Part shown: positions 43,305 through 56,870 of the stretch, piece by piece
How the letters are laid out: each line of letters begins with the position of its first letter
Position numbering within the stretch: position 1 is the first letter of the stretch
From: Bacteroidota bacterium
GTDB taxonomy: Bacteria; Bacteroidota; Bacteroidia; B-17B0; Aurantibacillaceae
Length of the DNA: 58,777 nucleotides
NCBI GenBank assembly: GCA_013816615.1
Contig: JACDED010000012.1
Span: 1-58,777 of the forward strand
Reading direction: 5' to 3'
Notes under the pieces: generated by a model
What the model was told of the DNA's origin: nothing
What the model saw: the letters and a program-made list of their open reading frames with translations, nothing else
The model's database searches: none
Made by a program: the position numbers and the translations under genes

Positions 43305-43403
43305 TACCCAGGCACTTTAGCTACAGAATTTACAATTTTCCTGAATTTTTTTCTATTTCAAATTCCAATTTGCACAATAAGTGTATAGTGTAATTAATTT
43401 TTT

Positions 43404-43500
43404 GGGCGCCCCCTTCGGGCCGGGCTGCTACGGGCTCGGCTAGCGCCTCGGTTTTTTGCCTTAACAGGCAAAAGAACTAAACCCTTCACATCCCTGTCGC
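43404..43500 (+). repeat. GC-rich structured dispersed repeat, copy A
   Basis: A 97-bp GC-rich island in AT-rich DNA. It opens with GGGCGCC, contains CGGGCTGCTACGGGCTCGGC, then a perfect 8-bp hairpin TTTTGCCT/AGGCAAAA (43454-43473), and ends CTAAACCCTTCACATCCCTG. Copy B at 55646-55747 on the minus strand has the same ends and core but a different hairpin. It lies in the convergent spacer between the response regulator and gldG, where no gene is seen. Confidence 0.75.
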
Positions 43501-43514
43501 AAACCAGGTTAAAC

Positions 43515-45236
43515 TTACTTTGCGAATTTACGTTTCCGTAAAAAGAATTGGATCAATCCAAACAGGATCAATAGCATTACCGGCATCAATACATTTATCA
43601 TTTGCCATTTACCACGTTGTGTAGTTATTTTCTTTTTATCCAATAAACGTAAAGTAACTTCGCGCGACCGCAATTGTAACATGCCTTCATCATCCAATAA
43701 ATAATTTACACAGTTCAATAAAAATGTTTTGTTGGCATACTGTTGGTTCGTAGCTCTATCATAGCCAAGCGGTACAGACTTGTTAGAGGTTCTGATAAAA
43801 TCATTTCTTGCCACATCACCATCAGCAACAACTATCATTTTTGTTTTCTTGCCTTTAGACAGGTATTTATGTTTTGCATTAAAGGCAGAGTCCGTTAAAA
43901 ATATACTTGGCAAACGATTCTCAGCAAAACTGGTAAATTCTCCTTCCAGTAAAACAGCAACAGGCACATACGAATTCATGAATTGAGATTCTTTTGGCGG
44001 GATCTGAACGCTCGAATAATAAATTCGTGCAGGCGAAGGAGTGATTTTTGTGTAACGCGATGTGTTTAATAGAACAGTTTTTGTAATTCCTCTTGCTGTA
44101 ATTGTATCTATTGAACTTACGTAATCAAATTTTATGAGATCAAGATTTTTTACAATAGGGTGATTGCCGTCCGGTAAAACCAATGGAGCGAATGGCCATG
44201 GAAATAATTTAAAATTTGGTTGCCCGTTCTTAAAGCCAATGTTTAAAGGTATTGCCGAGCATTGAAAATCCTGTAATAAAACTGTGTTCAAACGCACACC
44301 GTATTTAAATAACATATTATCTAAATTTAATGGGCGGGGCAATCCTAAAGTAAAGCCTTTTTGTATTAAAGTATCACGGTTAATACCAACGGGATCAACC
44401 AACCATAAAACTTTACCACCCCGCATAATATACTGATCAATAATAAACTGATCGGCCACTGTAAATGCGCTGTCAGGGCCTGCAATAATAACAGCAGCGC
44501 TTTGATCCAATGCATCCAGCTTTCCTAAAATAGGTGTACGGTTTACATCATAATATTCTGAAAGTGCCCGGGCAAATTCTACAATATGTAAAGTATCTAA
44601 TTCGTAATGCCCGTTAATAAAAGTTACTTCTTGTTTTTTATCGCGTTGTAATTTGCGAATAGTGTTTGTTAAGCTGTACTCTAATTCTTTTACACTGTTA
44701 TTTACCGAAACTTCGTAATCTGTATTATCCTGGCGGTTAAAGATCTTCCAAACGGCTTGGCGACCTTTATGGCTAACAATAGCGCCAGGCCAAATTCGCG
44801 ACTCCGACATCTTATCGTTATTTTTTTCGTAAACCTGCTCCGGCACTAAACCTTTTTCATACAATTGTTTTTCGAGGTTCATTTTCTCGTCATTGCTAAG
44901 CCCTTCGCCCGGTACAATAAATTCGTATTGAATTTGATTTCCTGAATAAGCCCTGAACTCATCTAAAATTTCTTTTGCTTCGTTCCTTAAACGTGTAAAG
45001 CTGGGATTAAAATCACCATCAAAATAAACTTTAAATAAAACTTCATCATCTAAATTTTGTAATAAGGTTTTTGTTGATTCAGCAAGTGTATAACGTTTTT
45101 CAGAAGTTAGATCGAAACGTTTAAAATAAAAGGAACCAATAAAATTAATAAGCACAACAATACCAAGCAAAATACACAGCGACATAATATCACGGCGTTT
45201 ATTTCTTTGGAGTTTTATTTTTTTCTCTGTTACCAT
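43515..45236 (-). CDS. gldG: Gliding-motility ABC transporter substrate-binding subunit GldG
   Basis: A 573-residue protein with one N-terminal membrane helix (LCILLGIVVLINFIGSFYF), a large exported domain typical of GldG (YTLAESTKTLLQNLDDEVLFKVYFDGDFNPSF; DRPLN-like LGLPRPLNLDNMLFKYG) and a C-terminal anchor helix (MINVLMPVMLLILFGLIQFFL). With GldF and the ATPase GldA it forms an ABC-type complex linked to gliding in Flavobacteria. It overlaps gldF by 7 bp. No gldA is in the window, which is usual. Confidence 0.93.
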   Translation of the reverse strand: MVTEKKIKLQRNKRRDIMSLCILLGIVVLINFIGSFYFKRFDLTSEKRYTLAESTKTLLQNLDDEVLFKVYFDGDFNPSFTRLRNEAKEILDEFRAYSGNQIQYEFIVPGEGLSNDEKMNLEKQLYEKGLVPEQVYEKNNDKMSESRIWPGAIVSHKGRQAVWKIFNRQDNTDYEVSVNNSVKELEYSLTNTIRKLQRDKKQEVTFINGHYELDTLHIVEFARALSEYYDVNRTPILGKLDALDQSAAVIIAGPDSAFTVADQFIIDQYIMRGGKVLWLVDPVGINRDTLIQKGFTLGLPRPLNLDNMLFKYGVRLNTVLLQDFQCSAIPLNIGFKNGQPNFKLFPWPFAPLVLPDGNHPIVKNLDLIKFDYVSSIDTITARGITKTVLLNTSRYTKITPSPARIYYSSVQIPPKESQFMNSYVPVAVLLEGEFTSFAENRLPSIFLTDSAFNAKHKYLSKGKKTKMIVVADGDVARNDFIRTSNKSVPLGYDRATNQQYANKTFLLNCVNYLLDDEGMLQLRSREVTLRLLDKKKITTQRGKWQMINVLMPVMLLILFGLIQFFLRKRKFAK

Positions 45237-55564: not shown

Positions 55565-55588
55565 CTGACCTAATAATTGTTATTTATA

Positions 55589-55614
55589 AAAAGGGCGCCA
55601 ACGGCGCCCTTTTT
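55589..55614 (+). terminator. Rho-independent terminator
   Basis: GC-rich perfect stem AAGGGCGCC with GGCGCCCTT, loop AAC, followed by a T-run. It is 25 bp after the SRPBCC gene stop. Confidence 0.88.
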
Positions 55615-55645
55615 TATTATTGTTAGAAGGTCGAAGATCTTATGT

Positions 55646-55747
55646 GTCAGGGATGTGAAAGGTTTAGCCACCGCAGCCACGCCTGCCTCTTGCGTGGCGA
55701 GGAGGCCGAAGCGATAGCGGAGCCTGTAGCAGCCCGTTAAGGCGCCC
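55646..55747 (-). repeat. GC-rich structured dispersed repeat, copy B
   Basis: On the minus strand it opens GGGCGCC, continues CGGGCTGCTACAGGCTCCGC, has a hairpin GCCACGC/GCGTGGC (plus 55676-55698, 9-nt loop) and ends CTAAACCTTTCACATCCCTG. The ends and core match copy A (43404-43500), but the hairpin sequence is unrelated while pairing is kept. It lies between convergent genes. Confidence 0.75.
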
Positions 55748-55761
55748 GAAAAATAAAACGT

Positions 55762-55832
55762 CATTCCGGACTTGATCCGGAATCTCAGTACTAAAAGAAC
55801 TGAGATGCTGAATCAAGTTCAGCATGACTACG
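55762..55832. repeat. Palindromic intergenic repeat, TGTCATTCC-related
   Basis: Opens GTCATTCCGGACTTGATCC and closes GAATCAAGTTCAGCATGAC, an imperfect inverted repeat of about 30-bp arms. The interior GAATCTCAGT and ACTGAGATGCT also pair. It is related at its ends to 11941-12001. Confidence 0.6.
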
Positions 55833-55848
55833 ACATTTTTGATTAACA

Positions 55849-55944: not shown

Positions 55945-56805
55945 TTAATTGCTTACCACTAAATATTTTGATTCGCTCCAGAATTTTTCAGGATTGATGA
56001 TCAAAATACAATTAACCATTTTATCTGTTTTATCTAATTTATAAGAATCACTTGGGTGTGGTGTGATCATTTTAAAATCTTTACTGTTAATAGGAATAGT
56101 AGTTGTTTGAGTATAATCGATCTGTGTAAATTTAGATTTATCAAGATCACGGTTCAATTGCGATGTTTTTCCAAGTCCTAATACACCACCTTTGCGCTCA
56201 ATTAATTTAGCTTTACGTAATTCTTTAGAATCACCAACACGGTAATAAGCGGTATGTAAAGCACTAGTTCTTTCATTAATGATCTGCGTTTTAGAAACAC
56301 CTTGTGAGCTTAATGTATCAACCGAAGTTTTTAACTGGGCAACCTGTGCATCCAATTCTGTTAAACGTTGATTTAAAGATGCTAACTCAGAATCTTTTTG
56401 AGCTAACTGGTTAATTAAAGTAGCAATTGTTTTTTCCAATTGCGCGTTCTTATTATTAGAGCGTTTTAATTTTTTACTCAGGTCTGCTAATTTTTTACGG
56501 TTAGCATCCATCAGGTCATTAATAGCTTCGATCTCGCGGTTGATACGTACTTTTTGGTTCAGTTTCATATCTCCGTCAGAGTGCATTAAGATCACATTTT
56601 GATGAACGCTTACTGAATCTAAATTTCTTTCAACTTCATCAAAGGCTGCGATAAAATCGTTAACCGACGTTTCTTTATCATTTATCAGGGCAACTAATGA
56701 ATCCTGAACTTCTCTTGCCCTTTTTTGTTCTGCTGTTTCGCCTTCAGGTGAACAGGCTGTTACAGATAGTAGTGCTGTTGCGGCGATTAAAATGTAATTT
56801 TTCAT
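55945..56805 (-). CDS. Coiled-coil lipoprotein
   Basis: Starts at the ATG at 56805 (MKNYILIAATALLSVTAC), a lipoprotein signal with Cys18. The longer start adds 20 charged residues. The 286-residue protein has a long heptad-rich coiled coil (about residues 65-185, MDANRKKLADLSKKLKRSNN, LAQKDSELASLNQRLTELDA), then a small beta-rich domain (VLGLGKTSQLNRDLDKSKFT, TTTIPINSKDF). It resembles Bacteroidota lipoproteins of unknown function anchored in the outer or inner membrane, possibly acting as a spacer. An exact -7 box lies about 58 nt upstream. Confidence 0.75.
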   Translation of the reverse strand: MKNYILIAATALLSVTACSPEGETAEQKRAREVQDSLVALINDKETSVNDFIAAFDEVERNLDSVSVHQNVILMHSDGDMKLNQKVRINREIEAINDLMDANRKKLADLSKKLKRSNNKNAQLEKTIATLINQLAQKDSELASLNQRLTELDAQVAQLKTSVDTLSSQGVSKTQIINERTSALHTAYYRVGDSKELRKAKLIERKGGVLGLGKTSQLNRDLDKSKFTQIDYTQTTTIPINSKDFKMITPHPSDSYKLDKTDKMVNCILIINPEKFWSESKYLVVSN

Positions 56806-56862
56806 AGTTTCTGGTTTTATTTTAAAGCTTTTGGCTTTATGGTTATTAATAATTTTCTTCAA

Positions 56863-56870
56863 CAAAATTA
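56863..56870 (-). promoter_or_regulatory. -7 promoter box TAATTTTG
   Basis: Exact TAnnTTTG match on the minus strand about 58 nt before the ATG at 56805. No TTG is seen at -33. Confidence 0.4.

Follow-up and report, generated by a model that had tools for sequence, protein, structure and literature searches.

Two GC-rich repeat copies, A and B, in the 58,777-nt stretch of Bacteroidota DNA analysed here (the window) belong to a dispersed repeat family, an unnamed sister of Flavo-1 (Rfam RF01705), in which both stand as solitary copies. Our findings support a model, which we consider probable, where these copies, as a sister type of Flavo-1, are parts of non-autonomous mobile repeats resembling REPs and REPINs. 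The module (type L) is a closed, branched fold of about 91 nt rather than one hairpin. High copy number, intergenic sites, inverted pairing (partly with Flavo-1-type partners) and lineage-specific presence characterize the family; whole pairs recur at unrelated sites, and the fold is conserved by compensatory change. From these features we infer that an enzyme acting on the folded strand moves the modules.

The two window copies (table 1) have GGGCGCC, CGGGCTGCTAC-GGCTC and CTAAACC-TTCACATCCCTG in common, as a first-pass annotation of this DNA had claimed, and their inner stems, TTTTGCC(T)/(A)GGCAAAA in copy A and GCCACGC/GCGTGGC in copy B, are unrelated in sequence with pairing intact in both. 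Also as described there, the copies are GC-rich in AT-rich DNA (GC 0.62 and 0.64, whereas 4-kb blocks of the window have 0.325-0.365), and the open reading frames (ORFs) flanking A, like those flanking B, converge. For copy B the minus strand and the limit at 55747 held, whereas the model match runs past the other proposed limit, 55646, to 55644. The case for pairing rests on comparing copies, since single-sequence folds of A and B, computed for both strands, were no better than shuffles (z -0.25 to -0.96). At the 5' edge, the small hairpin GCC-TTAAC-GGC proposed earlier can be drawn but competes with a long-range stem, GCGNN/NNCGC, which has better support: in L005 and L048 the second N of GCGNN is altered and the long-range partner is altered to match. 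This stem has one mismatch in copy A and two in copy B. Both copies look old, because their closing stem is damaged and neither has a partner.

Table 1. Coordinates of the window copies, of their structural parts, and of Y1 genes close to modules or Flavo-1.
Feature	Location	Strand	Remarks
Copy A, solitary branched module (type L)	43404..43500	+	5'-GGGCGCC...GTCGC-3'; R1 89.5 bits, partly by construction since the model includes copy A
P1 closing stem, 5' arm GCGCC (copy A)	43406..43410	+	pairs with 43496-43500, one mismatch
P1 closing stem, 3' arm GTCGC (copy A)	43496..43500	+	
Optional 5' hairpin CCC-TTC-GGG (copy A)	43411..43419	+	
P2 5' arm GGG (copy A)	43422..43424	+	partner CCC 43492-43494
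P3 5' arm GGG (copy A)	43432..43434	+	partner CCC 43482-43484; AGG/CCT in other copies
P5 hypervariable hairpin TTTTTTGCC-TTAACA-GGCAAAAGAA (copy A)	43452..43476	+	G43474 unpaired
Copy B, solitary branched module (type L)	55644..55747	-	R1 73 bits, model includes copy B
Variable stem, first arm GCCACGC (copy B)	55692..55698	-	pairs with 55676-55682
Variable stem, second arm GCGTGGC (copy B)	55676..55682	-	
Y1 gene ≤2 kb from module or Flavo-1	G000:C127		
Y1 gene ≤2 kb from module or Flavo-1	G018:C30		0.3 kb, 56 bits
Y1 gene ≤2 kb from module or Flavo-1	G010:C272		1.9 kb, 95 bits
Y1 gene ≤2 kb from module or Flavo-1	G013:C144		1.6 kb, fragment

The genome that holds the window (hereafter the own genome; 4.68 Mb, 246 contigs) contains 15 exact occurrences of GGGCTGCTAC, one of them (L003) a coding coincidence, and 59 of CATCCCTNGCGCA when up to one mismatch is allowed; the reversed pattern occurs once. 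A covariance model (R1), built from 24 copies of this genome, returned 71 matches in it at E ≤ 1e-3, in line with the earlier expectation of an element with many copies. In a survey of 41 genomes under stricter filters (the own genome, 24 other members of the genus and 16 from other families), the 14 genus members with matches held 71 (own), 37, 28, 14, 11, 8, 5, 4, 2, 2, 2, 2, 1 and 1 modules; the other genus genomes thus divide into 13 of 24 with 1-37 modules and 11 of 24 with none, and modules were absent from all 16 genomes of other families. One exact pattern, searched over genome contigs, was present in 52 stretches. The labels of their source MAGs are mostly Bacteroidia, Bacteroidetes or Sphingobacteriaceae; the rest are Spirochaetia or Spirochaetes (3), Ignavibacteriae (1), Deltaproteobacteria (1) or simply "bacterium" (2), and MAG labels can err.

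Parsed copies share a closing stem P1 (GCGNN/NNCGC), an optional 5' hairpin, P2 (GGG/CCC), P3 (RGG/CCY), a small P4 hairpin, and P5, a long hypervariable hairpin with an unpaired G near CTAAACC; most parsed copies of the own genome carry a TTAAC linker in place of the optional hairpin. Four of the 28 parsed rows (L006-, L009+, L011- and L051-), being odd types or having a broken end, were left out of the alignment (A2). Pairing reaches 95.5% of cells in the 24 own copies, against 81.2% when shuffled and 41-63% with partners slid, and both sides change at 12 of 23 pairs. The 69 distinct modules from other genomes, which were absent from model building but whose alignment is fitted to the model and among which related sequences count separately, form 96.6% of model pairs (83.4% shuffled, 43-68% slid); changes on both sides are seen at 14 of 23 pairs, in 178 cells against 40 after shuffling. 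The compensatory change first claimed for A and B, pairing kept while stem sequence alters, is therefore borne out in other copies, from the own as well as outside genomes. For instance, L039, with a hairpin of the copy B type, reads GCTACGC/GCGTAGC, a compensated pair.

Alignment-free tests support the predicted closing stem GCGNN/NNCGC and the inner RGG/CCY helix. In 52 outside matches scored without the model, P3 combined GGG with C 27 times, AGG with T 14 times, AGG with C twice and GGG with T never, the other 9 differing (Fisher p 1.5e-9, kinship ignored). For P1, likewise model-free, the predicted GCG plus complement lies upstream in 41 of 52 (permuted mean 18.5, maximum 28), and in 13 of the 22 whose ends are other than GG. 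The P5 arms of 44 loci show a mean uninterrupted pairing of 6.3 out of 10, against 3.4 with arms shuffled (maximum 4.2), a test biased toward the observed value since the observed anchor was the best of several. P2 is nearly invariant, and covariation therefore supports it only weakly. The earlier view of an element selected for structure, not for sequence, holds for the hairpins, which are free, but not for the frame, where GGGCG, GGGCT, CTAAACC and ATCCCT are strongly conserved. Mismatches at paired positions comprise 35 A.C and 8 G.T in the own genome, against 14 and 20 in other genomes, 10 of these G.T falling at one possibly misaligned pair; the suggestion from the own-genome counts that the complementary (Flavo-1) strand folds was dropped because the bias did not replicate.

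As to genomic placement, assessed with crude ORF calling, 62 of 71 modules overlap no ORF of at least 80 aa by more than 45 nt, and the remaining 9 overlap ORFs of 81-119 aa, treated as spurious. Where both neighbours are known (n = 61, pair partners counted singly), 24 spacers are convergent, 31 codirectional and 6 divergent. On the same ORF calls, an inverted partner signature lies within 100 nt on the 3' side in 41 of 71 modules, whereas 1 of 71 has it on the 5' side. The REP-like behaviour suspected in the first-pass annotation is thus recognizable: intergenic location, rarity in divergent spacers and frequent inverted pairs. Whole pairs also recur at sites with unrelated flanks, agreeing at 95% over 192 bp (L029/L033), 89% over 203 bp (L009/L051) and 85% over 191 bp (L265/L267). 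A gldG match is present in 29 relatives. Of these, 15 keep the convergent neighbours of copy A, gldG and a LuxR-type regulator (contig ends cut 2 more), and the orthologous spacer lacks the module in all 15; copy B's neighbour gene is poorly conserved among relatives. Among relatives no exact empty site was found, because they are too divergent. A transposon with cargo was considered for four module pairs lying 1-3 kb apart (L191, L192, L194 and L196) and rejected, as these enclose ordinary-looking ORFs; no autonomous relative was seen.

At the ends of three contigs of the own genome (C141, C32 and C62), the paired units L007, L024 and L277 are broken at an identical partner-module site, with GCGNNAG giving way to GTACTGTGATAAAAAGC... 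no more than about 126 bp from the contig end. The 3 matches of this sequence found in the genome all show this arrangement. It looks like an insertion sequence targeting the module, much as some insertion sequences target REPs; its body was not found.

The first-pass annotation had no name for the element, and its catalogued relative is Flavo-1: in L010, a composite, the L module is paired with an inverted Flavo-1 match at 67.4 bits, above the Rfam gathering score of 42 bits. The window copies are called a sister module, not Flavo-1, because they do not match Rfam; the Flavo-1 model gave no match in the window, nor in 43380-43540 up to E 10. A match to a domain of group II introns (Rfam, 14.5 bits, E 1.3) was discarded as noise. 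Flavo-1 has 25 matches in the own genome; among the matches listed, 7 of 23 lie 7-25 nt from an L module, inverted, and 16 of 23 have no L module within 400 nt. The two types share the frame GCGNN-A-GGG-AT ... CCCG-(hairpin)-NNCGCCC, a variable inner hairpin and the host group, whereas an additional P3 helix and the CTAAACC motif set the L module apart. An AGGGAT-frame motif, which Flavobacterium-type copies escape, picked 43 modules from 76 Flavo-1 loci, and an exact 5-bp closing stem is present in 33 of these 43 (shuffled mean 12.3, maximum 18), or in 29 of 35 once stretches from G018 are set aside (shuffled mean 9.7, maximum 16). Its 5' arms read GCGTG, GCGTT, GCGCC, CCGTT, GCGCA and GCATG, flanks that the 76-nt Rfam model shows as unpaired. 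Five of 10 Flavo-1 copies inspected by eye have neither the AGGGAT frame nor the closing stem, and their genomes look like Flavobacterium. To a family listed since 2010 as RNA of unknown function, our analysis adds a closing stem, which extends the Flavo-1 fold, and the unnamed sister module. No paper found in literature searches for the element calls Flavo-1 mobile. In G018, with 41 Flavo-1 matches, 22 of 26 fetched copies have a common left end, GGATCAATCGGAATTG, outside the module; some of the dispersal can therefore be hitch-hiking on a MITE-like unit. A right end, TTTTCCGCTTGACCC, roughly the inverted complement of GGATCAATCGGAATTG, is within reach in 7 copies and otherwise variable. This unit (L317-L356) exists in many near-identical copies and carries a Flavo-1 module.

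Overall, we suggest that the modules would spread singly, as inverted pairs, or carried within other MITE-like units. One strand would fold when single-stranded, the closing stem and the P2/P3 frame would be recognized by a trans-acting enzyme, and the hairpins could drift freely provided that pairing holds; by analogy, an HUH-type single-strand transposase would be the natural candidate. More tentatively, Flavo-1 and the L module may be two forms of a single branched recognition unit belonging to a non-autonomous mobile element, with a machinery that reads a multi-helix fold closed end to end and need not be a RAYT. Like REPs, REPINs and BIMEs, the modules are non-coding, present in many copies, intergenic, few in divergent spacers and found as inverted pairs. 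Unlike REPs, they are about 91 nt long and branched, and their association with RAYT genes is weak here. REPs themselves are 20-65-nt hairpins that have a GT[AG]G foot (PMC6006769, PMC3733652). By eye, such a foot of a short hairpin is absent from the aligned copies, whose complementary strand has an inner but variable GTAG. The modules resemble MITEs in being short, non-autonomous and multi-copy, and in recurring as a unit with unrelated flanks. The G018 unit is MITE-like with its ends GGATCAATCGGAA / TTCCGCTTGACCC and a Flavo-1 module inside; the paired units differ from MITEs, as their ends are structured modules, not simple inverted repeats. If the model is true, Flavo-1, an orphan Rfam family, would be part of a mobile DNA repeat and not a regulatory RNA, which would account for its being reported sense and antisense alike. 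The model also raises the question of the enzyme by which a branched repeat would be moved in Bacteroidia.

Could a RAYT (TnpA-REP subclass 2.6) have the modules as its cognate REPs? We regard this as unlikely, although host group and structure fit the description of Bacteroidetes subclass 2.6 genes flanked by "atypical secondary structures" with copies elsewhere (PMC6006769). The search covered the own genome, the 41-genome survey and 198 genomes of the class. One RAYT of the own genome is intact (NF047646, 109 bits, cut-off 80), and 0.48 kb downstream of it lies an L module. Yet in scanned flanks (≤1.5 kb a side) this is the only one of 66 distinct Y1 loci with an L module, and Flavo-1 is found at 1 of 52 (L357, 37.4 bits, below the Rfam cut-off). 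Among listed places of the 41 genomes, 4 Y1 genes of 96 rows are located no more than 2 kb from a module or Flavo-1, against about 1.06 expected (Poisson P 0.02, with a threshold picked afterwards and repeats that may cluster), but within 1.5 kb only 2 are seen against 0.83 expected (P 0.2). Presence patterns are similarly divided. Across the 198 genomes, 36 have Flavo-1 and a RAYT, 27 Flavo-1 alone, 46 a RAYT alone and 89 neither (Fisher p 0.003), but co-occurrence is not significant at ≥5 or ≥10 Flavo-1 copies (p 0.28 and 0.20). Moreover, G017, G009 and G013 have 37, 28 and 14 modules without a RAYT over the cut-off, G033 has 27 Flavo-1 matches and zero RAYT matches, and G019 has a RAYT and neither module type. 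In L357 (1350-2140), a different repeated hairpin, TTCGACATTNNNAATGTCGAA and TGAACGGCCAAC, stands by eye on either side of the RAYT gene, is unrelated to Flavo-1 and is presumably that RAYT's own REP. The RAYT or Y1 gene that the first-pass annotation proposed to look for is present, and the evidence linking it to the modules is weak and mixed, with a weak excess in proximity that flank scans missed and presence patterns that track it poorly. A RAYT is a possible mobiliser of the modules; no mobilising gene tied to the element was found in the own genome, the 41-genome survey or the 198 class genomes.

Some further observations concern the RAYT loci themselves. A second RAYT copy of the own genome (C209:53014-53415) has three in-frame stops. 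The sequence TTTTTGGACG before the intact RAYT was considered as the left end of an element and rejected, being the 3' coding end of an ORF (translation ...MKIYFWT) that by eye is IS1-like. L364 has two copies of a long repeated hairpin (1402-1534 and 2103-2237) on the same side of its RAYT gene; their sub-threshold score against an unrelated miRNA model points to a long inverted repeat.

Alternatively, Flavo-1 and the L module could be functional structured RNAs (3' UTR or small RNAs), duplicated and kept for their RNA function. Covariation in a branched fold would suit such RNAs, Rfam classes Flavo-1 as an sRNA gene, and a table in the 2010 Weinberg study scores it "y n n", that is, probably RNA and probably not cis-regulatory (PMC2864571). 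In Flavobacterium psychrophilum, some Flavo-1 matches are reported to coincide with 5' transcribed regions, but matches lie sense or antisense to transcribed regions indistinctly, and many fall outside them (PMC9723704). A copy number ranging from 0 to 71 inside one genus, the missing module at the orthologous spacer of relatives, inverted pairs, varied gene context, and the lack of a replicated G.U excess all argue against retention for an RNA function, which we consider improbable.

That the stems were kept by mutation (hairpin template switching or quasi-palindrome correction) together with gene conversion, with structure unselected, seems very doubtful. Quasi-palindrome correction acts on local palindromes; the most variable hairpin is one, and identical hairpin sequences occur in several copies. 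In copy A, however, about 85 nt separate the two arms of P1 and about 48 nt those of P3, and both stems covary too; covariation is also seen across genomes. A role as bidirectional transcription terminators or 3'-end stabilisers, suggested by sites at gene 3' ends and in convergent spacers, is hardly credible, as no T run follows the fold in the copies inspected, a T tract instead stands before GGGCG (T 83-90% at -3 to -1, n = 70), and copy B adjoins a separate terminator-like hairpin.

That hairpin, AGGGCGCC-GTT-GGCGCCCT followed by a T run (55588-55616, minus strand), lies between copy B and an AHSA1-like gene, and its stem resembles the module end. On the other side, a palindromic repeat (GATTCCGGATCAAGTCCGGAATGACG) directly adjoins copy B at 55755-55840 of the window; a GTCAT...ATGAC repeat adjoining L010 differs from it. 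The ORF at 55945-56865 (minus strand) matches the NCBIfam Cbp1 collagen-binding adhesin family at 223.5 bits (cut-off 90).
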